A stretch of DNA of 64,000 nt. Source: Mucilaginibacter rubeus (lineage in GTDB: Bacteria; Bacteroidota; Bacteroidia; Sphingobacteriales; Sphingobacteriaceae). Of this stretch, positions 1 through 51,418 are shown one piece after another (position 1 is the first letter of the stretch; every line of letters begins with the position of its first letter). The notes below the pieces were generated by a model that had not been told where the DNA came from, did no database searches, and saw only the letters and a program-made list of their open reading frames with translations. The translations under genes were made by a program, and so were the position numbers. The DNA is taken from the NCBI RefSeq assembly GCF_014643835.1, contig NZ_BMKD01000007.1, positions 124,001 through 188,000 on the forward strand, given 5' to 3'.

Positions 1-575
1 CGGTTGATACAACTAAAGCATTTTATGATATTAAACAGCCGCTTACCATTAAATATACTTTTTGGGATTGGCTGCGTGATAACTGGAAGCTGATTGCAGG
101 TATACTGGCAGGTTTGATTGTTGGCGGAGGTTCGATATTTTATCTGCTCAAAAAGCCTAAAAAAGAAGTTGTTGTTGAAGAGGTTAAACCCGACATTCCG
201 CTGCATATCCAGGCACTTCAAAAGCTTGAGGAGATCAAAAGCAAGCAGCTCTGGCAGCACGATCAGGTTAAGCAATATTATATTGAACTGAGCGACGTGG
301 TGCGCGAGTACCTCGAAAAAAGGTACACGATACAGGCCCTCGAGCAAACATCCGAAGAAATTTTTGCCAGCTTAAGGCATATGGACATCGCCAGCGAAGA
401 CAGGAACCTGCTAAGGCAATTGCTTGTGCTATCGGACATGGTGAAATTTGCCAAAGAGAAACCTGCGGCCCATGAAAATGAAAAGAGCATGGAAAACGCT
501 GTCACCTTTATTAAGGACACACAGCCTCATGCCCAGCCAACCGATGTAAATGTGAAGGGAGATGAGGCAAAATGA
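1..575 (+). CDS. Bat-operon membrane protein upstream of batA (5' end outside window)
   Basis: The reading frame is open from base 3, so the gene begins before the window; 190 residues are visible. A TTG at 114 is inside the membrane segment and is not a credible start. Visible layout: a short extracytoplasmic piece, one membrane helix (about residues 31-50, after WLRDNW), then a cytoplasmic helical domain containing YYIELSDVVREYLEKRY and a conserved LVKFAK-like segment. This resembles the DUF4381-type proteins that sit between the DUF58 gene and batA in Bacteroidota. The stop overlaps the batA start (ATGA at 572-575), so the genes are translationally coupled. Specific function is unknown. 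Confidence 0.8.
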   Translation, partial: VDTTKAFYDIKQPLTIKYTFWDWLRDNWKLIAGILAGLIVGGGSIFYLLKKPKKEVVVEEVKPDIPLHIQALQKLEEIKSKQLWQHDQVKQYYIELSDVVREYLEKRYTIQALEQTSEEIFASLRHMDIASEDRNLLRQLLVLSDMVKFAKEKPAAHENEKSMENAVTFIKDTQPHAQPTDVNVKGDEAK

Positions 576-1576
576 TTTGGTTTAAAGGAATAGAATTCGC
601 TCATCCAAGCTTTTTCTGGCTGTTCATCAGCATTCCGCTTATGGTGGGCTGGTACATCTGGAAACAAAAGCAGCTGCAGGGTAACCTGGCTATGCCAACT
701 ATCAGGGGCTTTGCCATGATCACCAAAAGCATGCTGCCCCGTTTCAGGCATTTGAGCATCATATTACGTTCGCTGGCTATGGCGGCGCTTATTGTTGCGC
801 TGGCAAGGCCGCAATCGTCGTTAAGCTGGCAGGATACTACGACCGAAGGTATTGATATCGTTATTGCATCAGATATCTCGGGCAGTATGCTTGCCGAAGA
901 TTTTAAGCCCAACAGGCTTGAGGCCGGCAAAAACATCGCCATCGATTTTATCCAGAACCGCCCTAATGACAGGATCGGCCTGGTAGTTTTCAGTGGTGAA
1001 AGCTTTACGCAATGTCCGCTCACCATCGATCACTCGGTATTGGTAAATCTTTATGCCGACATCAAAAACGGGATGATTGAAGATGGAACCGCCATTGGCA
1101 TGGGTTTGGCAACAGCCGTAAACCGTTTAAAGGATAGCGAGGCCAAAAGTAAAGTAGTGATCCTGCTTACGGATGGTTCAAACAATTCGGGCTCTATCCC
1201 TCCGGTTACCGCTGCCGAAATTGCCAAACAGTTTGGTGTAAGGGTTTATACAGTTGGTATAGGTACCAACGGCTATGCCCCCTATCCTGTTCAAACGCCA
1301 ATGGGTGTACAATACCAGCGCATGAAGGTTGATATTGACGAAGGTACGCTGAACAAAATTGCCACCATTACCGGCGGCAAATACTTCAGGGCTACCAACA
1401 ACAGCGCATTGAAGGATATTTACGAACAGATTGACAAACTGGAAAAAGCCAAGATTGATGTTACCCAGTACCGCAAAAAAACAGAGCGCTTTTTACCGTT
1501 CGCAATTATCGCACTGGCGCTTTTATCGTTGGAATTTTTAACAAGACACACCCTGCTTAAGGGAGCTATAACATAA
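572..1576 (+). CDS. batA: BatA, VWA-domain membrane protein
   Basis: The product has 334 residues. Membrane helices lie near residues 12-30, 60-78 and 308-326, with a von Willebrand factor A domain between them (about 90-290). The metal-ion-dependent adhesion site is intact: D101-I-S-G-S105, the threonine of DGTAIG near 173, and the aspartate of LLTDGSNN at 201. Bat proteins were linked to aerotolerance in Bacteroides and to envelope stress in other bacteria; they probably assemble into a membrane complex together with a MoxR ATPase encoded upstream. Four-base overlap with the preceding gene and a 4-bp gap to batB indicate one operon. Confidence 0.92.
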   Translation: MIWFKGIEFAHPSFFWLFISIPLMVGWYIWKQKQLQGNLAMPTIRGFAMITKSMLPRFRHLSIILRSLAMAALIVALARPQSSLSWQDTTTEGIDIVIASDISGSMLAEDFKPNRLEAGKNIAIDFIQNRPNDRIGLVVFSGESFTQCPLTIDHSVLVNLYADIKNGMIEDGTAIGMGLATAVNRLKDSEAKSKVVILLTDGSNNSGSIPPVTAAEIAKQFGVRVYTVGIGTNGYAPYPVQTPMGVQYQRMKVDIDEGTLNKIATITGGKYFRATNNSALKDIYEQIDKLEKAKIDVTQYRKKTERFLPFAIIALALLSLEFLTRHTLLKGAIT

Positions 1577-1580
1577 CAGC

Positions 1581-2621
1581 ATGCTACGTTTTGCAAATAC
1601 AGAATTTTTATGGGGATTGCTTGCTATTCCGCTGCTGCTCTTTATTTTTTTGAGGGTAAACTGGTGGAAACGTAAAGCAATTGCCTCGCTGGGTAATAAG
1701 GAGGTGGTGATGCAGCTGATGCCACAGGTATCCTTTTCACGCCCCTGGATCAAGTTCATCTTTTTTATTTTAGCCTATGCGCTTGTTGTTATCGGCATAG
1801 CTGACCCTCAGCTTGGTTCAAAAACCGAAGAGGTAAAACGCAAAGGCGCTGACCTGATGATCCTGCTCGACGTTTCAAACAGTATGCTGGCGCAGGATTT
1901 GGCCCCTAACCGGCTGGAAAATGCCAAACGTGCACTATCTCAACTGATTGATAAACTGCACGACGACCGTATCGGCATCGTTGTATTTGCGGGCCAAGCC
2001 TATGTACAACTCCCGGTAACTACCGATTACGCAGCGGCCAAACTGTTCCTCAATACCATTAACACCGAAATGGTGCCAACGCAGGGTACTGCCATTGGTG
2101 CGGCAATTAACCTGGGGATGCAGTCGTTTGATTTTAAGAACGGCACCGGTAAATCCATGATCATTATTACCGATGGTGAAAATCATGAGGATGATGCCGT
2201 ATCGGCAGCCAAAGCCGCTTTAGCCAGAAATGTTACTGTGAATGTGGTTGGTGTAGGTTCGGAAGAGGGTGCGCCGGTTCCAATTTACCAGGGTGGTAAA
2301 CAAGTTGGGTTTCACAATGACAGCACCGGACACCCTGTAGTTAGTAAACTTGATGAGGCTATGGGCAAGGAGATTGCCGAAGCCGGTAACGGCGTTTATG
2401 TACGTGCCAACAATGCCAACAGCGGCCTTAACATTGTGATGGACCAGATTGCCAAGGTGCAACGCAAAATGACGGATACCAAACAGTTTAAGGATTTTGA
2501 AGACAGGTTCCAGTTTTTCCTGGGCATTGCCTTTGTGCTGTTACTGGTTGAGTTCTTCATCTCCATTCGCAAAAACATGCGCTTGAGCAAGATCAAATTA
2601 TTTGAAGTAAAAAACACATGA
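1581..2621 (+). CDS. batB: BatB, VWA-domain membrane protein
   Basis: The product has 346 residues and the same architecture as its neighbour BatA: two N-terminal membrane helices (about 9-25 and 57-74), a VWA domain, and a C-terminal helix near 312-331. The MIDAS motif is D97-V-S-N-S101, with asparagine replacing the usual glycine, plus GTAIGAA and TDGENHED. BatA and BatB are ancient paralogues that occur side by side in most Bacteroidota bat operons. The gene overlaps batC by four bases (2618-2621). Confidence 0.92.
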   Translation: MLRFANTEFLWGLLAIPLLLFIFLRVNWWKRKAIASLGNKEVVMQLMPQVSFSRPWIKFIFFILAYALVVIGIADPQLGSKTEEVKRKGADLMILLDVSNSMLAQDLAPNRLENAKRALSQLIDKLHDDRIGIVVFAGQAYVQLPVTTDYAAAKLFLNTINTEMVPTQGTAIGAAINLGMQSFDFKNGTGKSMIIITDGENHEDDAVSAAKAALARNVTVNVVGVGSEEGAPVPIYQGGKQVGFHNDSTGHPVVSKLDEAMGKEIAEAGNGVYVRANNANSGLNIVMDQIAKVQRKMTDTKQFKDFEDRFQFFLGIAFVLLLVEFFISIRKNMRLSKIKLFEVKNT

Positions 2622-3373
2622 AGCAATATATCATAGCCATTTTATTAGTGCTGCAGGCTTCATTTCTTTTTGCCCAGCAGGAAAGAAAATACCTGAGGCA
2701 GGGTGACCAACTCTATCAGCAAAAAAAGTATAAAGAAGCCGAAGCCGCGTACCGCCAGGCCATGAGCAAAAAGGCCAAAACCCTGGAGGGTAATTTTAAC
2801 CTTGGCGACGCCATGTTTAAGCAAAAAAAATATGATGATGCCGCCGCACAGTTCAATAAACTGGCAACTGCATCTATTGATAAAAATGTAAAAGCAGGCG
2901 CCTATCACAACATTGGCAACTCCTTTTTAACACAAAAAAAATACCAGGAAAGTATCGACGCCTATAAAAAAGCGCTGGTTAATAACCCTAAAGATGAGGA
3001 AACCCGGTATAACCTTGCCTATGCCCAAAAAATGCTGAAAAACCAGCAGAATAAAAATAAAGGCGGCGGGGGCAACAATAATAATAAGGACAAGGACAAA
3101 AACAAGGATAAGAATAAAGATAACAAAGACAATAAGGACAAGGATAAAGACAAAAAAGACCAGGATAAAAATAAGCAGGACCAAGACAAGAAGGATCAGG
3201 ATAAGCAAAACCAGGATCAGAAAGATCAGCAGGGACAGCAGCCAAACCAACTGTCAAAAGATGATGCGCAGCGGATGCTTGATGCCCTCAACAATGATGA
3301 AAAGCAAACCCAGGATAAGCTGAAGAATAAAAAATTAAAAGGTGCTAAGGTGCCTATTTCAAAAGATTGGTAA
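2618..3373 (+). CDS. batC: BatC, secreted TPR protein with a charged low-complexity tail
   Basis: The product has 251 residues. A signal peptide (about 1-19, ending FLFA before QQE) is followed by TPR-like helical repeats at about 25-140 (QLYQQKKYKEAEAAYRQA; AYHNIGNSFLTQKKYQESID). Residues of about 145-215 form a tract made almost only of K, D, N and Q, followed by a short conserved C-terminus (MLDALNNDEKQTQDKLKNK). The tract should be disordered in the periplasm and may vary in length between strains. The start overlaps the batB stop. Role: probable periplasmic scaffold of the Bat complex. Confidence 0.9.
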   Translation: MKQYIIAILLVLQASFLFAQQERKYLRQGDQLYQQKKYKEAEAAYRQAMSKKAKTLEGNFNLGDAMFKQKKYDDAAAQFNKLATASIDKNVKAGAYHNIGNSFLTQKKYQESIDAYKKALVNNPKDEETRYNLAYAQKMLKNQQNKNKGGGGNNNNKDKDKNKDKNKDNKDNKDKDKDKKDQDKNKQDQDKKDQDKQNQDQKDQQGQQPNQLSKDDAQRMLDALNNDEKQTQDKLKNKKLKGAKVPISKDW

Positions 3374-3397
3374 ATCTTTGTTGTTTTGTAAATACTA

Positions 3398-5215
3398 ATG
3401 AAAATTAAACTTTCCATATTAACGCTGCTGCTGTGTTGCTCAAGCCTGGTTTTTGCACAGGTAAAATTCACTGCGTCGGTAAATAAAACCACTATAGGCA
3501 CAGGCGAGGTCCTCGAGGTCACCTTCTCCATCAACGCCAATGGCGAGCGTTTTGCGCCGCCTGCTTTTGGCGGCTTCCAGGTAGTTGGCGGCCCCAATGT
3601 ATCCAACAGCATATCCATGATCAATGGGGTTACTTCGGCAAGCATAGCATATGGGTATGATCTTGTACCAACAAAAGAAGGTGAAATAACCATTGGCCCC
3701 GCTACTATTGTAGCAGGCGGAAGGCCTTACAGCACTGCCCCGATTAAAATTAAAGTAGTAAAAGGCCAGGGCGGGCAGGCCAATCAGCAGGCCCAGCAGC
3801 AAAGCAGCAACGGGCCCGATAGCCGCAACATTCAAAAAGGGCGTGTAAGCGATATATCCAAATCATTGTTTTTACGTGCCGAGGTTGATAAAACAACCGC
3901 CTACATGGGTCAGCAGATCATGATGAACCTGCGCCTATACACCCGGGTTAACATCGCCAACGGCGAACCGGAAAAAATCCCCGATCTTAATGGTTTTTAC
4001 AGCCAGGAGATCAAAAACACCAATCCTAACGCCCAATGGCGCACCGAAATTTTAAATGGTGTACGGTACAACGTAACCGATATTAAACAAACCGTTCTGT
4101 TTCCCGAGCATGAGGGCAATATCACTATTGAGCCTTCTGTCATGAACTTTATAGTACGGCAGCAGGCCGCTTCATCATCAGGCGACCCCTTCGATGCATT
4201 CTTTGGCGGATATGAGGATGTGAAGTACAAGATTAAAAGTGCGCCCGTTGTCATTCACGTGAAACCACTGCCATTAGCAGGCAAGCCTGCCGAATTTACA
4301 GGCGCTGTGGGCAAGTTTAATATTGAGGCTTCGCTTGATAAAAATGATGTTAAAGCTAATGATGCCATTAATTACACCATAAAGGTAAGCGGCGCAGGCA
4401 ACCTGAAGTTGTTGAAACCGATAACGCCAACTTTCCCAGCCGACTTTGAGAAGTATGAGCCCAAGATCACCGATACCATTACCATAAATGCCAGCGGGGC
4501 ATCAGGTAGCAGAAAATACACTTATCTGCTGATCCCGAGGCACCAGGGCGATTTTACTATCGACCCGGTTAAATTCGCTTATTTTAACCCAGCCACCGGC
4601 CGGTACGTTTCATTAAGCACCCCGGCATTTCATGTTAAGGTTGCCAAAGGCAGCAGCGATGGCAGTAACGTTACCGCCTTTTCAAACGCCGGCAAACAGG
4701 ATGTTAAGGTGCTGAGCAATGATATCCGCTATATAAAAACCGGCACTGAATTAAACGAAGTCGGCAGCGATTTTTATGGCTCTGGATTATATTATTTCCT
4801 GCTGATCTTGGGTCCGGCAGGTTTCTTAGGCGCTTTGGTTTACGGTAAATGGCGAGATAAAAATAATGCCGACGTGGTTGGTTTAAAAAGTCGCAAAGCA
4901 GGTAAAGTGGCAGCCAAACACCTGGCCAGCGCCAAACAGCAACTAAACGATAAAAAGGCTTTTTATGAAAACCTCTTCCGCGGTTTATATGGCTATTTGA
5001 GTGATAAACTTAATATTCCTTACGCAGATCTTAACCGTGAAAAGATAGCTTCGGAACTAAAAGCCCGCTCGCTTGATGAAAGCCTCATTAACGAGATGTT
5101 GGGCACACTCGATCTTTGCGAAATGGCCCGCTATGCCCCTGTATCAGGCATTACCGAGCAACAGGTATTTGATAAGGCCCAGAACATGATCAATAACATT
5201 GAAAATAAAATATAA
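3398..5215 (+). CDS. batD: BatD, oxygen-tolerance protein
   Basis: The product has 605 residues: signal peptide (1-20, ending VFAQ), several beta-sandwich segments (starting VKFTASVNKTTIGTGEVLEV, with a further region around 285-420), one membrane helix near 462-482, and a cytoplasmic helical tail of about 120 residues. This matches the BatD family length and order. It lies 24 bp behind batC and runs up to batE. In the family it is a membrane-anchored periplasmic component of the Bat system. Confidence 0.92.
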   Translation: MKIKLSILTLLLCCSSLVFAQVKFTASVNKTTIGTGEVLEVTFSINANGERFAPPAFGGFQVVGGPNVSNSISMINGVTSASIAYGYDLVPTKEGEITIGPATIVAGGRPYSTAPIKIKVVKGQGGQANQQAQQQSSNGPDSRNIQKGRVSDISKSLFLRAEVDKTTAYMGQQIMMNLRLYTRVNIANGEPEKIPDLNGFYSQEIKNTNPNAQWRTEILNGVRYNVTDIKQTVLFPEHEGNITIEPSVMNFIVRQQAASSSGDPFDAFFGGYEDVKYKIKSAPVVIHVKPLPLAGKPAEFTGAVGKFNIEASLDKNDVKANDAINYTIKVSGAGNLKLLKPITPTFPADFEKYEPKITDTITINASGASGSRKYTYLLIPRHQGDFTIDPVKFAYFNPATGRYVSLSTPAFHVKVAKGSSDGSNVTAFSNAGKQDVKVLSNDIRYIKTGTELNEVGSDFYGSGLYYFLLILGPAGFLGALVYGKWRDKNNADVVGLKSRKAGKVAAKHLASAKQQLNDKKAFYENLFRGLYGYLSDKLNIPYADLNREKIASELKARSLDESLINEMLGTLDLCEMARYAPVSGITEQQVFDKAQNMINNIENKI

Positions 5216-5216
5216 C

Positions 5217-5978
5217 ATGATGAAGCGCATTATATACTTACTGCTCATCATCGTTATGCCGATATCTGCATTAGCTAACGATGAAGCTAACATCCTGTTA
5301 AAAAAAGGGAACAACCAATACGCCAAAGGTCAGTATAAGGAAGCCATAACCACCTACCAGAAAATTGTGGACGATGGGCACCAGTCGGCATTGGTTTACT
5401 ATAATTTGGGCAATGCTTATTTTAAAAATGAGGATGTGCCATCGGCGTTGCTTTACTATGAAAAGGCCCATAAACTTTCGCCGGGCGATGAGGATATCAA
5501 TTTCAATATCCAGTTTGCCAATCAAAAAACAACCGATAAGGTAGAGGCCGGTACCGAGTTTTTCATTACCAAATGGTGGCACTCGTTTATTCTCCGCTTT
5601 TCATTAACAACTTTGGCGGTGATGACGATTCTGTTCTTTATAGCGGGATGTGCATTGCTGATCGTGTACAGGTTTACTAATTCGGTAAGCATTAAAAAAT
5701 GGTCGTTTTATTCGGCTTTGGTAATCTTACTTTTCGGTTTCGCGAGCATGTTTGTTGCAAGTCGCCAGGATCAATACTTTGATGCCCATCACGGCGCTAT
5801 CATATTCAGCACGTCTGTTAATGTAAAAAGCGCGCCAACGCCCAACGCTAAAAATCTGTTCCTGATCCATGACGGTACAAAGGTTGAGATACTGGAAAAC
5901 AACAACGACTGGATGAAGATCAGGCTGGCCAGCGGCAACGAGGGCTGGATCAATGCTTCGGACGCTAAGGAAATATAG
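5217..5978 (+). CDS. batE: BatE, TPR and SH3-domain membrane protein
   Basis: Start chosen at ATG 5217, two bases after the batD stop; an upstream in-frame ATG at 5199 would put KIKYN before the signal sequence. The product has 253 residues: signal peptide (MMKRIIYLLLIIVMPISALA), TPR repeats (about 22-85; GNNQYAKGQYKEAITTYQKI), two membrane helices (about 112-132 and 145-164), and a C-terminal bacterial SH3 domain (SVNVKSAPTPNAKNLFLIHD through WMKIRLASGNEGWI). It closes the operon; a repeat-rich intergenic region follows. Confidence 0.9.
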   Translation: MMKRIIYLLLIIVMPISALANDEANILLKKGNNQYAKGQYKEAITTYQKIVDDGHQSALVYYNLGNAYFKNEDVPSALLYYEKAHKLSPGDEDINFNIQFANQKTTDKVEAGTEFFITKWWHSFILRFSLTTLAVMTILFFIAGCALLIVYRFTNSVSIKKWSFYSALVILLFGFASMFVASRQDQYFDAHHGAIIFSTSVNVKSAPTPNAKNLFLIHDGTKVEILENNNDWMKIRLASGNEGWINASDAKEI

Positions 5979-6257
5979 TTTTTGAGGAGGTGAAAGGATA
6001 AAGGTAAAAGGCGAAAGGTTGCTTTTTAAACTCAATTCTTTCTTTCACTGGTCGAAGTTTAGTGATATCGCAACTTCGTCCTAAAACTGTGGAAGCATTC
6101 TGCTTCCGCGGATTATCTATTGCAGATGTTCAGTTAAGCTGAATGGTTACCCATTTTGGGTCCAAGGTTCGCTATCGCTAAACTTAAACCAGGTGTGGCT
6201 TGGGCAGCAATTAAACTACGGACATCAAGGAAAATCCAAAAGAATTTTAATATTAAA
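5979..6257. other. Intergenic region with hairpin element A
   Basis: No credible gene. The only structure seen is the multi-hairpin element at 6054-6190, annotated separately. Composition changes here from the operon behind to the AT-rich island ahead. Confidence 0.6.
6054..6190 (+). repeat. Multi-hairpin REP/REPIN-like element, copy A
   Basis: Consecutive hairpins: GAAGTT/AACTTC (6054-6077), GGAAGC/GCTTCC (6091-6107), TTCAG/CTGAA (6129-6143), CCCA-TTT-TGGG (6150-6160), and the CTATCGCTAA core within 6164-6190. The first hairpin is an inverted relative of the last, so the whole is REPIN-like. Copies B and C keep the last three stems in the same order and orientation. It lies just 3' of the minus-strand gene ending at 6258. 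Confidence 0.75.
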
Positions 6258-6830
6258 TCAAAATTGATCCCAAAAGTCAGGACTTTGTTGATCCATATCC
6301 AAGTCATCATTATAATGCGACCATGATTCATCATTGCTTAAGTCGTTATAATCATAACTAAGAGCTTCACGTTTTCCGTCTTGAATGTCTTCGAAACGAT
6401 ATTTGCCATATAGCACTAATGTTTTTTCAACTTCACGATAGTAACTTAATGAGCCATTCTTTAGTTTATAATTATACTTTAAATTATTAAGAGCCGCTTG
6501 ACTATTTTCCTGCGAATAATCAAAATCAGGATAAAGATCGCCGATAAAGGCGTCTCCAAAAGTGTCATCCAGAGCTTGATAAGTTTTTATTTCAGAAACC
6601 CACTTGTCCCAAAAGTCGATTTCTTCTCTTGAAAAATTTCTAACATCTGGACGATATATATCGACTTTGTTTAAAAAGTAAGCAAACCAATGGCTTAATT
6701 CAGGTAATTGATTTTCTTTAAACAAGTCCTGATAGGAGCCTACGTACCCCCGGTCTGTTTCCGGAAGATTGAAAATGCTATCTATCTGTTCAAAAATAAA
6801 GCTATCATATTTATTAAAAATGGTTATCAT
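6258..6830 (-). CDS. Unknown AT-rich 190-residue protein, possible orphan immunity protein
   Basis: Family not recognised. The product is 190 residues, acidic, soluble, without signal peptide or membrane helix, rich in aromatic residues (SHWFAYFLNK, DFWDKWVSEI) and ends in an aspartate-rich tail (DDLDMDQQSPDFWDQF). ATG at 6830. It is visibly richer in A and T than flanking genes, lies between hairpin elements A and B, and is on the opposite strand to the bat operon. Small acidic single-domain proteins in such islands are often immunity proteins of polymorphic toxins, but no toxin gene is nearby; this role is inference. Confidence 0.6.
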   Translation of the reverse strand: MITIFNKYDSFIFEQIDSIFNLPETDRGYVGSYQDLFKENQLPELSHWFAYFLNKVDIYRPDVRNFSREEIDFWDKWVSEIKTYQALDDTFGDAFIGDLYPDFDYSQENSQAALNNLKYNYKLKNGSLSYYREVEKTLVLYGKYRFEDIQDGKREALSYDYNDLSNDESWSHYNDDLDMDQQSPDFWDQF

Positions 6831-7104
6831 GCTTTAGCCAATTTTTTTTGCTATAAAATCATCTTTAAAGGTATTAAACATGTGCGAGAATAGCTCCATT
6901 TGAACATGTTTTCAAACCTTATACTAAAAAATTTAAATAATTGTCTAAAGGAAGCAACACATAAAACCCGCCGTCCGCTGCGTCTAAGGATGACTATTCT
7001 ATGGCTGTCCGTAGATCTGTCTACGGATTCATAATGCCTGTAGTTTGCAACTACAAGCCATCAATGGGTTGAAGTTCACACTATCGCTAACTTTAGCCAA
7101 AGAT
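6831..7104. other. Intergenic region with hairpin element B
   Basis: AT-rich spacer with no gene. Small hairpins CGTAGA-tctg-TCTACG (about 7010-7026) and element B (7039-7093) are the only structures seen. Confidence 0.5.
7010..7093 (+). repeat. Multi-hairpin REP-like element, copy B
   Basis: Stems in order: CGTAGA/TCTACG (about 7010-7026), TGTAGTT/AACTACA (7039-7055), CCAT-ca-ATGG (7058-7067) and AAGTT..CTATCGCT..AACTT (7072-7093). The middle mini-stem differs from copies A and C on both sides of the stem, so pairing is kept. It ends 12 bp from the stop of the minus-strand gene at 7105. Confidence 0.7.
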
Positions 7105-7455
7105 TTATTTGGTGAATATCGATTCGTTTACTTTTCCTGTACCGGGGTCAATTGTAAATCTAAATCCGCACCAATTAAATGAAACCAATTTCAGATTTTG
7201 GATTTCAATACTTATAAAAGGGCAATATCCGATAATGTCAAGATTTTCGCTTCTTTCAATTTGCCATAAAATCTCACCGTTAAAATCTATGGCATACACA
7301 TTCTGATTAAATTTAGTATCCCCCGAAATATCTAAAAGAACAACAATTTTGCTGTCGAATACCAACGTATCCTGTATCGAAAAATCAAACTCTATGAATT
7401 TTCCTGTTTCAAAAATTATCTTCTTTTGGTCTACACGATAGCTTCCTACATTCAT
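7105..7455 (-). CDS. Unknown 116-residue beta-rich protein, possible orphan immunity protein
   Basis: The product has 116 residues, no signal peptide and no membrane helix. It contains NVYAIDFNGEILWQI, a turn-and-strand pattern like one propeller blade, then SFNWCGFRFTIDPGTGKV. Similar small proteins with the E-I/L-W-Q-I and I-D-P-x-T-G-K patterns are widespread in Bacteroidota as uncharacterised, immunity-like proteins (recalled, not searched). The gene is AT-rich and bracketed by hairpin elements B (3' side) and C (5' side). No partner toxin is visible. Confidence 0.6.
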   Translation of the reverse strand: MNVGSYRVDQKKIIFETGKFIEFDFSIQDTLVFDSKIVVLLDISGDTKFNQNVYAIDFNGEILWQIERSENLDIIGYCPFISIEIQNLKLVSFNWCGFRFTIDPGTGKVNESIFTK

Positions 7456-7564
7456 AATTTAATATAATTAATGTTAGTAGAATATGGGTGGTCTATTAGT
7501 AAGCTCGGTGTTGCCTAAAATAGTTGCAATATCCTATTTTCACGGACTGTGTCAATTGCAGGTA

Positions 7565-7622
7565 TTCAGTTAAGCTGAAAGCTTAACCTATTTTAGGTCC
7601 AAGTTACGCTATCGCTAAACTT
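7565..7622 (+). repeat. Multi-hairpin REP-like element, copy C
   Basis: TTCAGTTAAGCTGAA (7565-7579) is identical to copy A. It is followed by CCTATTTTAGG (7587-7597), where copy A has CCCATTTTGGG (a compensated base-pair change), and AAGTT..CTATCGCT..AACTT (7601-7622). It lies 38 bp 3' of the pfkB-type gene, at the edge of the AT-rich island. Confidence 0.75.
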
Positions 7623-7659
7623 GAACCAGTATTTGTGTATTTGCTTTGGGCTTAAAGCC

Positions 7660-8547
7660 TTAAGCTTTCGGCTTTATGCTGTGTTTCGCTAACAGCTCCA
7701 GTACATCTTCTTCGGTACCGGTAAAAGGGCCTGATGATTCTATTTTAAAACTGGCCATAGCAGCAGCAAACTCGCCGGCCTCCTGGAAACCCTTCCCTTT
7801 GGCGCGTTGGTATAAATAGCCTGCCATGTAAGTATCACCGCAACCTGTAGCATCAACTACTTCAACCGGTTTGTAGGCCGGGATCTGATAATAAACACCA
7901 TCTGTATAAATCACCGAGCCCATACTGCCTAATGTAACCACTACCTCTTTAACGCCCCAGTCATTCAAAACTTTGGCACCTTCATGAATGTCAGTTATAC
8001 CAGTAAGTACTTCCATTTCATGTTCGTTCACCTTCAGGATATGGATATGTTGCAGAGCGTCACGCTTTTCGGGCCAGTCGATGGCTATTACGTTTTTATC
8101 TTCTACCTTACGCAGGTAGCCCTGTGCGTCAAGAGAAAGCTTGCCCCGTTGAGCCAAGTTCTTTATAAATTCTACGGAGATATCATCGGCCAGTAAAGGG
8201 CCTAAATGATAAACGTCGGCCTGGATCTCGTCAAGCTGTTCAATAGTGAAGGGATCCGCTTTTTGTAACACGCGCTGGGTACGGTGATCCTGGTTAACAG
8301 AGTAAATATTTTCAAAGTAAACCGTTTCGCCGCCTGTAGTAGCATGTACTTCGATACCTTTGTTACGGAGTTTTTCAACAACCGGCATTTCGCTCAAAGC
8401 AAGCGAGGTAACCAGGGTATAATTCACATCCATGTTACGGATGGCGTTTGAAAAGTAAAAAGAAGTACCGCCAGCCATGTGTTTAACCGCTTGCGGTGTT
8501 ACCACTTTATCTAACGTAATATGCCCTACACAACAAATATCGTACAT
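7660..8547 (-). CDS. PfkB-family carbohydrate/nucleoside kinase
   Basis: The product has 295 residues. The N-terminal substrate side contains the glycine pair (MAGGTSFYFSN, 24-34); the C-terminal PfkB signature is VDATGCGDTYMAGYL (231-245), with D238 the expected catalytic base and ATGCG the anion hole. Family members phosphorylate sugars or nucleosides with ATP; the substrate cannot be told from sequence alone. The N-terminus (MYDICCVGHITLDKV) resembles a Bacteroidota subgroup annotated only as PfkB sugar kinase. Likely monocistronic and cytoplasmic. Confidence 0.9.
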   Translation of the reverse strand: MYDICCVGHITLDKVVTPQAVKHMAGGTSFYFSNAIRNMDVNYTLVTSLALSEMPVVEKLRNKGIEVHATTGGETVYFENIYSVNQDHRTQRVLQKADPFTIEQLDEIQADVYHLGPLLADDISVEFIKNLAQRGKLSLDAQGYLRKVEDKNVIAIDWPEKRDALQHIHILKVNEHEMEVLTGITDIHEGAKVLNDWGVKEVVVTLGSMGSVIYTDGVYYQIPAYKPVEVVDATGCGDTYMAGYLYQRAKGKGFQEAGEFAAAMASFKIESSGPFTGTEEDVLELLAKHSIKPKA

Positions 8548-8663
8548 GAAATTTCCCTATTATGATTTGATACTCAACCCCTATTATTAAAACAAACGGC
8601 AAATGTAAAGAAATAGGAAAGGGAGTACAAGAATTGTGGCATATTATAACATCCCCGTTATAA

Positions 8664-9269
8664 TCATTTACTCGCTGTTGAAAGTTGTTGAAGTGTTTTA
8701 GCACCCAGCATACCATCCGGAATAAGCTTACAATGTGCCTGAAAAGCCATCACCGCTTTTCTGAATATATCAGATTCTTGCCCGTCTATCGGTCCGGCAT
8801 AATATCCAAGTGATTTTAACTGCTTTTGCGTTTCGGTTAATAAATCAATCTTTCGATCAGCAGACAGATCGCCCAGCGAGGGTACTTCTCCCGGGTGTTT
8901 AATTATTTTGGAAAGCTTAACTCTTAAGCTATCATCATTAACGAGGCCGGTTTGCACTAAAAAGTTCAGGTTTTGCGCAGCTGCCTGTTGATCGCCGTTG
9001 GTTTCTATCATTTTTAAAACCAGGTCTGCTTCAAATTTTTGTTTTTCCAGGTTTCGATTTGCAACACCCTGTATCCATGCGCCTACTCCGGTACCGAGTA
9101 AGGCAAATATCGCTGAGAGGATTATCGGTGCATACTGTGATTTAAGCCACTTATTTTCACTCCTTTTCGACTGCTCTTCCTGGTAGTACTTAAAAACTTC
9201 AAAGTCAAGCTCTGTTTTTATCTGTGATTTAAACTTGTTAAAACTTTCATCCGGTTGTGTGTCGGCCAT
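8664..9269 (-). CDS. Membrane-anchored peptidoglycan-binding domain protein
   Basis: The product has 201 residues. A charged helical N-terminus (1-45) precedes one membrane helix (47-67), a helical linker (70-135), and a C-terminal PG_binding_1 domain (about 142-197: KQLKSLGYYAGPIDGQESDIFRKA, then FQ and PDGMLGAKTLQQL). No signal peptide precedes the helix, so the N-terminus should be cytoplasmic and the binding domain outside, if topology follows the positive-inside rule. Role beyond wall binding is unknown. Confidence 0.75.
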   Translation of the reverse strand: MADTQPDESFNKFKSQIKTELDFEVFKYYQEEQSKRSENKWLKSQYAPIILSAIFALLGTGVGAWIQGVANRNLEKQKFEADLVLKMIETNGDQQAAAQNLNFLVQTGLVNDDSLRVKLSKIIKHPGEVPSLGDLSADRKIDLLTETQKQLKSLGYYAGPIDGQESDIFRKAVMAFQAHCKLIPDGMLGAKTLQQLSTASK

Positions 9270-9359
9270 AGGTTATTTATTAGCTGTATGATTATAAAAT
9301 TAGATAATAAAATCTATTCTTTAAACAATCAACTCAGTCGCGAATATAATAACAAGCTT

Positions 9360-10526
9360 TTATACTACCCCGCTAAACACATCTACACCTGCCATTTCGG
9401 CCAGGTCATCAAAATATACCGATGCGAGATGCTCCCAGCTTAAGCGGCTGCTGTATTGGAGGGCCCCTTCAATAAACTGTTCCCGCAGGCTTTTATTCTT
9501 CAGCAATAATTCAATCCGCTCAACATAGCAGCCGGCATTGTATGGCTCACATTTAAAGCCATTAATGCCTTGCTCAATAAAATCTTTTGAGCCGCCGCCG
9601 TCGGCAATAACGCACGGTACGCCCGATGCCATAGCCTCAAGTACTACGTTACCATAAGCTTCAGATACCGATGGAAACAGGAACAGGGTTGATGACGCGT
9701 ATAAAACCGAGAGCGTTTTATGATCTACCTTACCGGTAAATACGGCCTTGGGCATCTTCGCTTCACAGGCTTTGCGTGCAATGCCATCGCCTGCAATGAT
9801 GAAGTTAACTTCGGGATGGCGGTCCTGCATTATGGTATAGATCTCAAACAGGGTCTCCAGGTTTTTCTCCCAAACCAGGCGGCTCGCAAATAAAATAGTT
9901 GGATTATCATTTCCTGTTATCGAGTGCAAACTTTTTTTATGCCTTGGCGAAAACAGCCGGGTATCTATTCCCCTTTGCCATAGTTTCATGCGATAGGTAT
10001 CAACTCCCATATCAATCAGCTCATCCTTCATAGTAATTGAAGGCACGTATACCTGATCACATTGATTATAGAAAACCTTATGACTCTCGGCCATCATCTG
10101 CTTAACCTTATTGATGAGGAAAGGGGTATGTTTCAGGTAATAATCGATGTAGGAAATAAAATGAGTATGGTATATGCTCATAACAGGCAAGCCTTGCTGG
10201 GTAGCATATTTTAACGCAAAATTGCCCAAAAGCGATGGCGTGGCGATGTGTACAACATCTGGCGAAAAATTATCAATCTCTTGCTTTAATTCGCCCATCA
10301 CCAGGGCAGGTATCGCCATAGTGTAACCGGTATTGATCGGCAAGGTCAAAGCCGGCACTTTTAATGATTCAAAACCGGCTATGCTATCCGGCCCGGCACC
10401 GTAAACAAACAGAAACTCAAAAATATTACGGTCAATCCGTTTAATGAGCTGATACATGGTGCGTACTGCACCGTCAAAATCTTCAATAAGTATCTCGGCA
10501 AAAAATGCTACTCTGATCTTTTTCAT
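9360..10526 (-). CDS. GT4-family glycosyltransferase
   Basis: The product has 388 residues in two Rossmann halves. The N-terminal half starts KKIRVAFFAEILIEDFDGAVR (acceptor side); the C-terminal half carries the GT4 donor signature SEAYGNVVLEAMASGVPCV near residue 290, whose two glutamates (E-x7-E) contact the nucleotide sugar. Closest by feel are the MgtA / SQD2-like lipid glycosyltransferases; substrate unknown. It lies 22 bp behind the GDPD-like gene on the same strand, so the two are probably co-transcribed, which would fit a lipid-related acceptor. Confidence 0.88.
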   Translation of the reverse strand: MKKIRVAFFAEILIEDFDGAVRTMYQLIKRIDRNIFEFLFVYGAGPDSIAGFESLKVPALTLPINTGYTMAIPALVMGELKQEIDNFSPDVVHIATPSLLGNFALKYATQQGLPVMSIYHTHFISYIDYYLKHTPFLINKVKQMMAESHKVFYNQCDQVYVPSITMKDELIDMGVDTYRMKLWQRGIDTRLFSPRHKKSLHSITGNDNPTILFASRLVWEKNLETLFEIYTIMQDRHPEVNFIIAGDGIARKACEAKMPKAVFTGKVDHKTLSVLYASSTLFLFPSVSEAYGNVVLEAMASGVPCVIADGGGSKDFIEQGINGFKCEPYNAGCYVERIELLLKNKSLREQFIEGALQYSSRLSWEHLASVYFDDLAEMAGVDVFSGVV

Positions 10527-10548
10527 CTTATTGACTGATTAGCGGTTA

Positions 10549-11397
10549 TTACTTTGTGTTCACCTTCGCATATCTTACAGGTTCCGGCCCCATCATCAGG
10601 AACTCTCTTAATTCGGCTAATTTATCGGTGTTGATCAGGTCAACCTCACATTCAAGCAAGGCTTTCCATACTTCCTTGTTTTCCGGGGAAGCCCACAGGC
10701 GTACCCGTTTTTTATGGTGATGCGCTGCGGCTACGTAATCACGAAGTAATTGTTTCTGATCTTCGGGCATCGGGCCTTTACCTGTCCAGCTGATCAGGCG
10801 CGAATATTTGCAGCTGGCAGTTTTATAAACGGTATTTGAAAGTGTATCGGTATGCACCTGCATCAGGTCCTCATCAATAAAAGCATAGCGTTGCCTTTGT
10901 GCCTGAAGCATCTTATATGGCTTATTGCCGGTTATAACGATGGTTACACTGCCTTCTGTTATTTCGCCGTTGTTATAGCTCGACAACATCGGCGCGTAGC
11001 GCTTTAAAACTTCCGACAGTTTTGCGTAGGTTTTCTCGGCGTCTGATTTAATATCGATCATCAACGTAACAGGAGCAAGCGGGTATACCACCTCCCTGTT
11101 TTTCCCTTCATAACAGTTAAACAATGGTTTTAAATAAAGCTGCTCCAGGGTGCGTTTTTTTTGAAAAGCGGGCAACATATGTGCCACCAGCAATTCGTCA
11201 TCACGCAGGTAAATATCAGCTTCTATGTTTTGAAAACCGTTATCCAAAGCATCGTACAGCGGTCGGTTGTGCCAGTAGTCATTATGCGCGAAACCTTTAG
11301 AGAGCGGGTTATTTTGAGCCTGGCAGGTAATGACTTTGAAGGTAAGGATAACAAAAAACAGAAATTTCAGGTGCTTGTGGCAAAATGCTGCTTGCAT
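10549..11397 (-). CDS. Secreted glycerophosphodiester phosphodiesterase-like protein
   Basis: The product has 282 residues with an N-terminal signal peptide (hydrophobic core FLFFVILTFKVITCQA). The TIM-barrel start of the GDPD/PI-PLC superfamily is seen as KGFAHNDYWHNRPLYDAL, where AHND replaces the usual AHRG, followed by NIEADIYLRDDELLVAHM, which carries the E-x-D metal ligands and second histidine. This is the AIM6-like branch. Predicted periplasmic or outer-surface hydrolase of phosphodiesters. First gene of a likely two-gene operon with the glycosyltransferase. Confidence 0.8.
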   Translation of the reverse strand: MQAAFCHKHLKFLFFVILTFKVITCQAQNNPLSKGFAHNDYWHNRPLYDALDNGFQNIEADIYLRDDELLVAHMLPAFQKKRTLEQLYLKPLFNCYEGKNREVVYPLAPVTLMIDIKSDAEKTYAKLSEVLKRYAPMLSSYNNGEITEGSVTIVITGNKPYKMLQAQRQRYAFIDEDLMQVHTDTLSNTVYKTASCKYSRLISWTGKGPMPEDQKQLLRDYVAAAHHHKKRVRLWASPENKEVWKALLECEVDLINTDKLAELREFLMMGPEPVRYAKVNTK

Positions 11398-11595
11398 CGT
11401 AATTTGTATTTGTTGCTACAAATTTATCCTTCAGATATGTACAGGCAGTTATGTCATGGTAAAGTAAAAGCACCAAATGCTTTAATTTATTGTAAATGAC
11501 TTAACGTTTTCATCACATTAAAATATACAAATTGACACCGTTCGATTAAGCTGGAGTCACATTAAATACGCATTTTATAAAGAAGTGTTAATATG

Positions 11596-12483
11596 CTATG
11601 ACAAATGGCGAAGAATTGATGCACCGAGCTCCTGCCAGTTACCAGCTTTTTCGGGAAGTGAACAAAGATCTGAGATAAGCATAAATACATCTTCCGCACT
11701 TTTGCCTTCCTGCCTTAGATATCTAATCGACGTTGAGCCGGCCGATTTGGATAGCTTTTTACCGTCTTTTTCAAGCAACAGCGGATGATGATAAAATACG
11801 ATATCATTAAAATCCTGCTTATCCAACACAGCCGCCAACTGGATCTGAGCCAATGTTGACGCCCACAGATCTTCACCCCTCACAATCAGGTCAATGCCAT
11901 AAAACAGATCGTCAATAACAGAAGTAAGTTGATAAGCCGGGAAACCGTCTTTTTTTTTGACCACAAAATTTTCCATTTCGGCAAGTAGCTGAGTTTGGAT
12001 AATTTTGCCGGTATAACTTTTCACGAGCAATGTAGCAACGTTATCTGTACGTAAGCGCCAACTCGCTCCAAGGGTATTTAAAGGAATCTGCTTATCTGAG
12101 CAGGTACAGCTTCCAATTTCACTCATTTGCTTGCGCGAGCAGGCACAGGCAAATACAAAACCACCTGCGGCTAATTGCTCGAGGGCTTCGTTATACAGAT
12201 GCATCCGGTGAATTTGTGAAAACCTGGCTTCAAAATCGTCGGCATCCTGCGGTCCTTCATCCCAGGGGATCTCCAAAAATCGTAGCGTATCAAAAATATC
12301 AGTCAGGTATTCCCGATTAACCCTTGCCCGGTCGAGGTCATCAATCCTCAATAAAACTTTAGCGCCATGCTTACGCGCCAATGTCGCGGTGATAGAAAAA
12401 GACAGCACATTGCCCACATGCAAAAACCCGCTTGGTGTTGGAGCAATGCGGGTTTTATTAAAATGTATCGGGGCACTTGTCAA
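11596..12483 (-). CDS. gluQ: Glutamyl-Q tRNA(Asp) synthetase
   Basis: The product has 295 residues, the length of the GluRS catalytic core without an anticodon-binding domain, as in YadB/GluQ. Class I signatures: PTPSGFLHVGN (16-26, HIGH equivalent) and KKLSKS near 245 (KMSKS). A zinc-site cluster is present at C113-x-C115 and C126-x-C128. The enzyme glutamylates queuosine in tRNA(Asp). The only possible initiation codon is TTG at 12483: an in-frame stop lies three codons upstream and no ATG precedes the HIGH motif. Confidence 0.85.
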   Translation of the reverse strand: MTSAPIHFNKTRIAPTPSGFLHVGNVLSFSITATLARKHGAKVLLRIDDLDRARVNREYLTDIFDTLRFLEIPWDEGPQDADDFEARFSQIHRMHLYNEALEQLAAGGFVFACACSRKQMSEIGSCTCSDKQIPLNTLGASWRLRTDNVATLLVKSYTGKIIQTQLLAEMENFVVKKKDGFPAYQLTSVIDDLFYGIDLIVRGEDLWASTLAQIQLAAVLDKQDFNDIVFYHHPLLLEKDGKKLSKSAGSTSIRYLRQEGKSAEDVFMLISDLCSLPEKAGNWQELGASILRHLS

Positions 12484-12573
12484 TAGCTTTTAGGATTGAT
12501 GAATGCTAAGATACAAAAGCGGGCGGCTATAGCAAATAGTGTGACGGATTCCTTTTGAGCGATGGGTTGTGCG

Positions 12574-12693
12574 ATTCCCTCCCCTGGGAGGGTGTAGGGA
12601 GGGGTTTCGTCGACATACCTATGCGCTTTAATGACGCACAAACCCCTCCCTGCCACTACTCATTCCAACCACACCCCTCCCGGGGGGAGGGAA
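12574..12693. repeat. G/C-block inverted repeat (REPIN-like, CCCTCCC family)
   Basis: Left arm CCCTCCCCTGGGAGGG then GGGAGGGGTTT; right arm AAACCCCTCCCTG then CCCCTCCCGGGGGGAGGG. Each arm is itself a hairpin and the arms are inverted copies, as in a REP doublet. It separates gluQ from the SDR gene. Related elements are at 14307-14413 and 55284-55508. Confidence 0.75.
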
Positions 12694-12721
12694 TTGAAAA
12701 TGGAGCGCCTCCTATAAACCA

Positions 12722-13465
12722 TTATGCCAGCAACGTACCTCCATCAACCACTAAATTCAACCCGGTGCCAAAGCTTTGCTTCATAAGATAAACAAAAGCA
12801 AGGGCAACGTCATCCGCGTGACCAACGCGACCAAGCAATAACGTATCTTTTGCCCAATTGTAAAGGCCTTCTTTATCTTCGGCAGGCATACTATCCCACA
12901 GGTTGGTGTCAATTACCCCGGGTACCACCGCGTTTACACGTATTGGAGCAAGCTCAACGGCAAGTGCCCTCACCAGGCCTTCCATGGCGCCGCAAATACT
13001 GCTGGCTATCGACCAACCAGCTGCCGGTCTTGCCCCTGCCGTGCCCCCAGTTAGGTTTACCGAGCCGCCCTCATTAATGAACGGGGCACCATACTTAACA
13101 GCAGCATAAGCCCCCCAATAGCGGAGATTAAAGAACTTACGTGCGGCCCCGATATCTGTTTGGTCGATATTATTCAAATTAAGATTTTCGGCAGCGGTAT
13201 AAACCAGGTGATCGAACTTCCCGGCCTGCTCAAAAAATGATTGTATGTTTTCCTCGTGCGATAGATCTATGGCGTAGCCCTCTGCATCTTCAGGCAGCTG
13301 GCTTAAAGCATTATTGATCTTACTTTGATTACCTGAAACTATTACCACTTTAGCCCCTTCCGCAGCAGCAGCTTTTGCTGTCGCGAAGCCTATACCTGTA
13401 CTGCCACCCAATATAATTACCCTTTTGCCTTTTAATGACGATTTGTTTTCAATTTGATTACTCAT
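12722..13465 (-). CDS. Divergent SDR-family protein lacking the Y-x-x-x-K catalytic pair
   Basis: The product has 247 residues with a Rossmann fold and cofactor motif GGSTGIGFATAKAAAAEG (19-36). The segment that normally carries Y-x-x-x-K reads GWSIASSICGAMEGL, so tyrosine and lysine are replaced by serine. Downstream ELAPIRVNAVVPGVIDTNLW is typical of SDRs. A subgroup of bacterial and fungal SDRs shows this GW-[SA]-x-x-x-S pattern. It may bind NAD(P)H without classical dehydrogenase chemistry, or use another mechanism. Divergent from the SMUG2 gene. Confidence 0.85.
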   Translation of the reverse strand: MSNQIENKSSLKGKRVIILGGSTGIGFATAKAAAAEGAKVVIVSGNQSKINNALSQLPEDAEGYAIDLSHEENIQSFFEQAGKFDHLVYTAAENLNLNNIDQTDIGAARKFFNLRYWGAYAAVKYGAPFINEGGSVNLTGGTAGARPAAGWSIASSICGAMEGLVRALAVELAPIRVNAVVPGVIDTNLWDSMPAEDKEGLYNWAKDTLLLGRVGHADDVALAFVYLMKQSFGTGLNLVVDGGTLLA

Positions 13466-13578
13466 GATGTTTATTCTTTTTTAGACACCACAAATTTCCG
13501 CCGTAAAAAACCGGTTCCACTTACCATTTGGTAAAAAGCGATTAGCCTTCAGAATTTATAAAATGCTAAATTTGAGTT

Positions 13579-14277
13579 ATGACACTCGCAGACCGGATTA
13601 TCCAATTCAATGAGCAGCTAACCTACACCGGCGATCCTTTACCTGAAGACATCCGCATTATGAACCCTTTTAAGGAACATCCGCAAACCATGCGTATTGT
13701 CGATGAGTTTTACCATAAATATTATAATGATAATCAACAGCGGCATATCATTTTGGGCATTAACCCCGGCAGGTTTGGCGGTGGCTTAACAGGCATCCCT
13801 TTTACGGATCCTAAACGACTGATCTCTGAGTGCCACATCAATTACGAAGGCAAAATGTCGCATGAGCCTTCTTCTGTGTTTGTTTATGAGGTGATCAACG
13901 CCTTTGGCGGCCCGGAAGCTTTTTATAAACAAATCTATATTAATTCGCCCTGTCCGCTTGGTTTTACAAGTGTTGATGCAAACGGCAAGGAAAAGAACTA
14001 TAACTATTACGACAGTAAGGAACTAACCAAAGCCGTTTATCAGTTTATGATCGAAAATATCCGCAAGCAGATTGACCTGGGCATTAATACCGAAAAATGC
14101 TTTTGTTTTGGTACGGGAAAAAATGAAACATTCCTGCGCAAGCTAAACGATGAATACCATTTCTTTGGCGAGATCATTGCACTGGAACATCCGCGTTTCA
14201 TCATGCAGTATAAAACGGCAAGCAAGCAATTTTATATTGATAAATACCTTGCTGCTTTTGAAAGTATTGCGGGATAA
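13579..14277 (+). CDS. SMUG2-type uracil-DNA glycosylase (DUF4918)
   Basis: The product has 232 residues. The active-site motif GINPGRFGGGLTGIPFTDP (around 57-75) and the late motif EHPRFIMQY match the SMUG2/DUF4918 branch of uracil-DNA glycosylases. The enzyme removes uracil or related damaged bases for base excision repair. A TAnnTTTG-like box (TAAATTTG, 13567-13574) ends only five bases before the ATG, so the transcript could be leaderless; this is inference. Confidence 0.85.
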   Translation: MTLADRIIQFNEQLTYTGDPLPEDIRIMNPFKEHPQTMRIVDEFYHKYYNDNQQRHIILGINPGRFGGGLTGIPFTDPKRLISECHINYEGKMSHEPSSVFVYEVINAFGGPEAFYKQIYINSPCPLGFTSVDANGKEKNYNYYDSKELTKAVYQFMIENIRKQIDLGINTEKCFCFGTGKNETFLRKLNDEYHFFGEIIALEHPRFIMQYKTASKQFYIDKYLAAFESIAG

Positions 14278-51261: not shown

Positions 51262-51266
51262 CACTG

Positions 51267-51372
51267 CTTATGGAGAAAGACGGAGGGATTAGACCCTGCG
51301 ATGTCTTAGCAACCTGTGCTTCACAAGGTGCTACATTCTACCAGGCAGCAATTACGCGCCCGGACAGATAAG
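51267..51372 (+). ncRNA. SAM-I (S-box) riboswitch upstream of metH
   Basis: P1 is formed by CTTAT (51267-51271) and GATAAG (51367-51372). The conserved core is present in order: AAAGACGGAGGGATTAGACC, CTGCGATGTCTTAGCAACCT, a P3 hairpin, AGGTGCTACATTCTACCAGG and the P4 segment. A following hairpin CGAAAGTC..GACTTTTCG (51373-51401) lacks a T tract, so the expression platform is not an obvious terminator. Confidence 0.92.
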
Positions 51373-51418
51373 CGAAAGTCATAACAACACCCGACTTTTC
51401 GAGATAAGCTGTATTTAG

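Follow-up and report, generated by a model that had tools for sequence, protein, structure and literature searches.

REPIN elements and variable accessory genes at the batE–pfkB locus of Mucilaginibacter rubeus

Results

Layout of the batE–pfkB locus

The window (the whole stretch of DNA analysed, 64,000 nucleotides of M. rubeus contig NZ_BMKD01000007.1, positions 124,001 to 188,000) carries a Bat-type operon and a pfkB-family kinase gene, between which two small AT-rich genes alternate with repeated hairpin elements in the order batE, REPIN A, 190-residue gene, B, 116-residue gene, C, pfkB:

5199..5978, plus strand: TPR/SH3 gene (Pfam TPR and SH3_3), left anchor, last gene of the Bat-type operon
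6046..6194, no strand assigned: REPIN A, a complete element of two REP hairpins in inverted order, both with an inner palindrome (motif count, alignment, covariance model and fold)
6046..6114, minus strand: left REP half of A (82.4 bits, covariance model)
6127..6194, plus strand: right REP half of A (57.4 bits, covariance model)
6258..6830, minus strand: AT-rich gene of 190 residues, no relatives found
7001..7060, plus strand: left part of B, a half-element of the second REP family, palindrome at 7038-7056 (match in genome G014, dispersal)
7064..7101, plus strand: right part of B, a decayed first-family REP (16.5 bits, E 0.13, for 7032-7102)
7105..7455, minus strand: AT-rich gene of 116 residues, possible orphan immunity gene (relatives, gene company, GC)
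7490..7562, no strand assigned: decayed left half of C with spacer (aligned to the REPIN of genome G001; repeats the spacer region of A)
7563..7631, plus strand: right REP half of C (91.3 bits, covariance model)
7660..8547, minus strand: pfkB-family kinase gene (Pfam PfkB), right anchor

The TPR/SH3 gene is called batE in this analysis; the genes preceding it encode BatA and BatD domains. The two enclosed genes have a GC content of 0.335 (190 residues) and 0.322 (116 residues) against 0.429 for the window, which bears out their description as AT-rich in the first-pass annotation. The same annotation had seen in A, B and C three like hairpin elements, each just 3′ of a minus-strand gene, and had read them as the sites of gene cassettes. 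Rfam models detect a SAM riboswitch (51265-51374, plus strand) and two tRNAs in the window, and no family at gathering score in the stretch from A to C.

A family of inverted REP hairpins

With up to three mismatches allowed, the motif CGCTATCGCTAAACTT occurs four times in the window, always within the A to C stretch (0.63 expected; four reached in 1 of 100 shuffles). A carries it on both strands, 115 bp apart, and such opposite-strand pairs are also found in related genomes. The hairpin on the opposite strand of A (6046-6114) had previously been overlooked; with it, A is a complete REPIN made of two inverted REP hairpins. Alignment of A with 17 other inverted pairs revealed one common design. 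The left side consists of ACTGGTCGAAGTT, a loop, AACTTCGTCCTAAAA and an inner palindrome, after which comes a variable spacer; on the right side a second inner palindrome is followed by TTTTAGGACGAAGTT, a loop and AACTTCGACCAG. The foot of the element is CTGG/CCAG, and the GT[AG]G of canonical REPs is absent. In a survey of 72 loci from 12 genomes, 52 of the 95 REP sites had the minus/plus pair.

A covariance model was built from 39 half-elements, three of them from the window itself. It ranks the right half of C first, followed by the left and right halves of A, while the left half of C alone gives a weak score or none. A and C also form direct repeats of 44 bp (89% identity) and 42 bp (81%), the latter linking the 7490..7562 part of C to the spacer region of A. 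The right half of C is a well-kept half of a REPIN related to A, spacer included. The claim of three like elements thus stands for A and C, whose common order and orientation go beyond chance, but B is a weak match (E 0.13 over the window) and a composite.

Folded as single-stranded DNA, A reaches −29.9 kcal/mol (z −6.2), the counterpart in G001, the nearest relative, −42.5 kcal/mol (z −10.3), and C has a z of −4.2. The earlier suggestion that a folding mobile DNA element takes part is supported. The inner palindrome covaries, with three pairs altered on both sides in 16, 21 and 18 of the 39 sequences. A mini-stem that keeps its pairing while its sequence changes, as had been proposed from A, B and C, was rejected as a feature of the family: 66.5% of cells pair among the 39 copies against 67.2% in shuffles, and 441 of 500 shuffles reached the observed value. 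By eye, the right halves at the batE–pfkB locus of related species do preserve this stem. In one element (L102:5458-5529) and in a REPIN of M. endophyticus (L134, L222) the loop has the opposite orientation to its stem, with the result that either strand is matched by the model. At another M. endophyticus locus (L109, G032:C30:86000-92500, 2744-3220) six REP halves stand in tandem at 65-bp steps and are followed by one inverted half.

Element B combines half of a second REP family with a decayed first-family REP, to which only its last ~35 bp belong. Its palindrome (7038-7056) is part of another dispersed repeat, GCCTGTAGTTTGCAACTACAGGC, with 22 matches in G014, 22 in M. endophyticus (G032) and 0 to 10 in the other six of the eight genomes, counts which take both strands and which exceed the number of copies where the palindrome matches twice. 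The left part of B matches G014 at 84% over 77 bp. A decayed REP is likewise seen by eye 3′ of the 116-residue gene in M. gossypiicola, at the same place as B. In M. endophyticus the second family flanks on both sides a 184-residue RAYT-like gene that has a Y1_Tnp match and carries YIHQNP (L231, G032:C23:501500-507000). At the matching place in G014 (L232, G014:C1:383500-389500) a two-piece transposase gene lies between two second-family repeats.

Spread in the genus and the linked RAYT

The named relatives nearest to the window are Mucilaginibacter, and the covariance model finds the element in at least 91 of 120 genomes of this genus, where 42 candidates were scored per genome and the counts are therefore lower bounds. 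Five single-contig genomes gave 36, 30, 70, 43 and 57 matches at E 0.01. In G001, the product of a 201-residue gene matches NCBIfam REP_Tyr_transpos (94.9 against a cut-off of 80) as well as Pfam Y1_Tnp, and by eye it contains the motifs SHVH, WQ and YVHNNP. This RAYT gene sits between REP(−) and REP(+). Its relatives in M. gossypiicola (G018), SMC90 (G097), G062, G135 and G140 are placed likewise, so that the RAYT gene is bracketed by the same inverted REPs in six related genomes.

All ten genomes with a RAYT of at least 77% identity have at least 14 element matches, compared with 24 of the 110 others (p = 1.1e-6), in a hand tally whose threshold of 14 was chosen after the data had been seen. 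G014 and G032 hold at least 30 and 38 matches, and their best RAYT is merely 52% and 58% identical; these may perhaps be populations of elements that outlived their own transposase. Two different REP-bracketed places in G062 hold RAYT sequences: one gene is intact, the other, a relative at 80% identity, is broken (L211, L212). Beside the intact gene a 73-residue OmdA/YdeI-type gene, by name a bacteriocin protection gene, also lies between REP(−) and REP(+). A clean empty site for a REPIN insertion was sought among the loci examined, and none turned up.

The batE–pfkB gap across species

Fourteen loci were compared, in 12 of which both anchors were in reach. The enclosed genes do vary between species: of the two in the window, only the 116-residue gene is shared, by one of seven close relatives. 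This is M. gossypiicola, where the order is REPIN, 116-residue gene (90% nucleotide identity to that of the window), REP, 180-residue gene, REPIN, pfkB. G001, G014, SMC90 and M. endophyticus have one REPIN each, in a gap of 238 to 349 bp with neither gene; that of M. endophyticus has its left loop inverted. The gaps of M. gossypii and M. oryzae (250 and 364 bp) contain no REP, nor do those of more distant loci, which measure 145 to 179 bp at L104, L138 and L140 and 1648 bp at L137.

In the alignment, the G001 allele consists of one REPIN with the left flank of A and the right flank of C, without a gene. A comparison of 19 spacers grouped those of A, C and G001 together, and none of the 11 from elsewhere matched them. 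The spacer of A matches equally well the spacers of C and of the pfkB-proximal REPIN in M. gossypiicola, scoring 0.50, barely above the 0.46 of the best shuffle. In a tree built from the flanking genes, G001 groups with M. gossypiicola (support 93), and the window joins the two with a support of only 70. Given this grouping, the simplest history is one gain of the 116-residue gene followed by its loss in G001; two separate gains are also conceivable. The variation fits loss or gain of genes by recombination between REPIN copies.

The two enclosed genes

No relative of the 190-residue protein was found in 60 nearby genomes or in 395 genomes of the phylum, in searches that had no positive control for this query. 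Neither small protein matches Pfam, NCBIfam or PADLOC, and their single-sequence structure predictions are poor (mean pLDDT 38.5 and 57.8). The 116-residue protein has 10 matches in nine of the 60 genomes, and a profile search found it in five of 251 genomes of the family; all of these are Mucilaginibacter. One of the ten is the gene at the batE–pfkB locus of M. gossypiicola. A second, in G023 (70%), comes after genes for an RHS-repeat protein and SUKH-1, with a KwaB-like gene nearby, and a third, in G026, is near SUKH-1 and DUF4951 genes. The other seven have no immunity-type company within ~1.5 kb, with ORFs judged by eye. An orphan immunity function is a fair guess for the 116-residue gene. 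The earlier description of both genes as immunity-like thus holds as a suggestion for one of them only, through its company in two genomes.

The G023 relative has no first-family REP within the 8 kb examined, contrary to the expectation that element boundaries always accompany the gene. Together with the dispersal of the hairpins without a link to small genes, this largely matches both outcomes that the first-pass annotation had named as refuting its gene-plus-hairpin units. Of the cassette idea there remains the finding that REPINs enclose accessory genes at batE–pfkB.

Discussion

The elements represent a new sequence family within an established class, namely REPINs with a linked RAYT in Mucilaginibacter. 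Our preferred explanation, to which we give a probability of roughly 0.8, is that intact or decayed members of this RAYT-linked REP/REPIN family (A, C and the right-hand portion of B) flank accessory genes, and that recombination between copies gives the variants of the locus. The data establish membership of the family, its dispersal, the bracketing of RAYT, the variation between species and the one-REPIN allele of G001, whereas the recombination and its direction, RAYT activity and the immunity function are proposed. To judge from its family, RAYT, an HUH/Y1 single-strand transposase, would move the REPIN. In single-stranded form the element can fold back into one long hairpin, and its sites are extragenic and avoid the starts of divergent genes. 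REPs can recombine. In the batE–pfkB gap, where related copies flank AT-rich accessory genes, recombination between REPINs would delete the genes in between, a single REPIN remaining, and the reverse reaction would add genes. This could produce two genes in the window, a partly different pair in M. gossypiicola and none in the six other close relatives. The 116-residue gene probably encodes an orphan immunity protein. With a locus of this kind, whose REPIN-bracketed genes vary from species to species, a possible influence of REPINs on gene content could be put to the test.

An extension of this reading, which we regard as unlikely, is that RAYT-linked REPIN clusters are exchange points at which small AT-rich immunity or defence genes collect in Mucilaginibacter, in the manner of rAID sites. 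Recombination would take hold of related REPIN copies, and REP pairs that face outwards could enable RAYT to transport a passenger gene in single-stranded form. If true, this would be a rAID-like gene-collecting site based on an HUH/Y1 transposase instead of a tyrosine recombinase. Besides the two co-oriented short AT-rich genes between repeats in the window, it is favoured by the clustering of sites. Among the best 150 of 236 matches in five complete genomes (95 sites), nine inter-site gaps measure 0.3 to 3.5 kb. Three contain RAYT, and the other six compare with 0.85 expected under random placement (p = 1.5e-4), in a model that let sites fall anywhere and not just between genes. The ten genes in these six gaps have a median GC of 0.409 against 0.445 for 214 controls (p = 0.002), although G140 supplies four of the six gaps and eight of the ten genes, so that the data are not independent. 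In an opportunistic set of 14 genes from nine loci, the median GC of genes between REPs was lower by 9 points than in the remainder of the locus; since this set was drawn from close REP pairs, the five complete genomes, where the effect is smaller, are to be preferred.

One cluster borders Mrr/M78 and AbiH genes. On the other hand, ordinary genes adjoin most REP sites in the 72-locus survey, some enclosed genes resemble housekeeping genes, and no transfer event was seen. Accessory regions may merely tolerate insertions, and either such plain tolerance, towards REPINs and accessory genes alike, or REPIN-based exchange would explain the pattern. In our view these data give a modest indication of AT-rich accessory genes being bracketed by clusters of REPINs.

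That the hairpins are instead transcription terminators or mRNA-protecting RNA structures of their neighbour genes seems very improbable, even though their folds are stable and their positions relative to genes are not random. Two of the 95 surveyed REP sites lie inside ORFs and two are too close to a locus end; the remaining 91 divide into 51 between co-directional, 35 between convergent and 5 between divergent genes, while the 121 control gaps without REPs at the same loci include 57, 22 and 42, respectively. Divergent gaps are avoided (p = 1.2e-7) and convergent gaps enriched (p = 0.0016), p-values which are too small because the 72 loci, drawn from 12 genomes, contain sites orthologous between several species as well as two pfkB loci (L222, L236) and because genes were called by a longest-ORF rule. 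The observation that A, B and C each lie 3′ of a gene is therefore true but reflects a general property. A general tie of the sites to small genes had to be abandoned: the trend is opposite, with 53 of 182 neighbours shorter than 200 residues against 105 of 242 in controls. Terminators or RNA structures would not account for inverted pairs with shared ends, found around a transposase gene as well as beside unrelated genes, nor for the 51 co-directional sites, and Rfam gave no family in the A to C stretch. A secondary terminator or RNA-protecting role of REPIN elements may be envisaged.

In integrons, a cassette consists of a gene and then attC, an imperfect hairpin able to fold as single-stranded DNA. 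A comparable array in which each gene with its 3′ hairpin was inserted site-specifically by a hairpin-reading integrase is very improbable: the gene-plus-hairpin order does repeat and the genes of the locus do vary, but the elements are dispersed without dedicated genes, bracket their own transposase and have neighbours that are not small, B mixes two families, and the 14 proteins scanned (572-14277) include no recombinase family, in line with the earlier remark that no integrase is visible. In the inner palindrome GTTAAGC precedes GCTTAAC, whereas attC cores stand in the opposite order. No gene with exactly one flanking half-element at an unrelated site was seen here.

Returning to the REPIN reading, the elements resemble the REPINs described in PMC3116915, which are inverted extragenic REP pairs with a spacer, dispersed, RAYT-linked and in some cases in tandem. 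The Mucilaginibacter element differs from that description in its greater length (~150 bp), in the palindrome nested within either half and in CTGG replacing GT[AG]G. According to the same paper, distances above 200 bp between REPINs of Pseudomonas fluorescens SBW25 are random, whereas the Mucilaginibacter sites, among the best 150 of 236 matches, also cluster at 0.3 to 3.5 kb. In PMC6006769, TnpA-Y1 subclass 2.6 of the Bacteroidetes is a gene flanked by atypical secondary structures that have genomic copies. The host phylum, the flanking structures with copies and WQ agree with our data, as does the YIHQNP of the second RAYT-like gene. The main RAYT reads SHVH and YVHNNP by eye, whereas the table in that paper gives NH[LIV]H and YIH[QN]NP for subclass 2.6.

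The rAID sites of Bacteroidales described in the preprint PMC12247911 likewise hold co-oriented short genes, probably for orphan immunity proteins, and a repeated intergenic sequence. The window has two co-oriented genes within their size range of 100-300 codons, immunity being suggested for one only. It differs from rAID in having no tyrosine recombinase among the 14 scanned proteins and in a repeat that is dispersed and linked to a transposase. A search of open papers for RAYT or REPIN together with Mucilaginibacter, as whole words, found none; PMC7232477 contains the terms Mucilaginibacter and repetitive extragenic palindromic. TnpA-REP is called domesticated in the abstract of PMC8266576.

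At one locus of G140 (L296, G140:C1:902500-912500), REP sites stand 2 to 2.5 kb apart and two of them share 94 bp at 98% identity; an HTH gene lies between the sites, with the Mrr/M78 and AbiH genes alongside.
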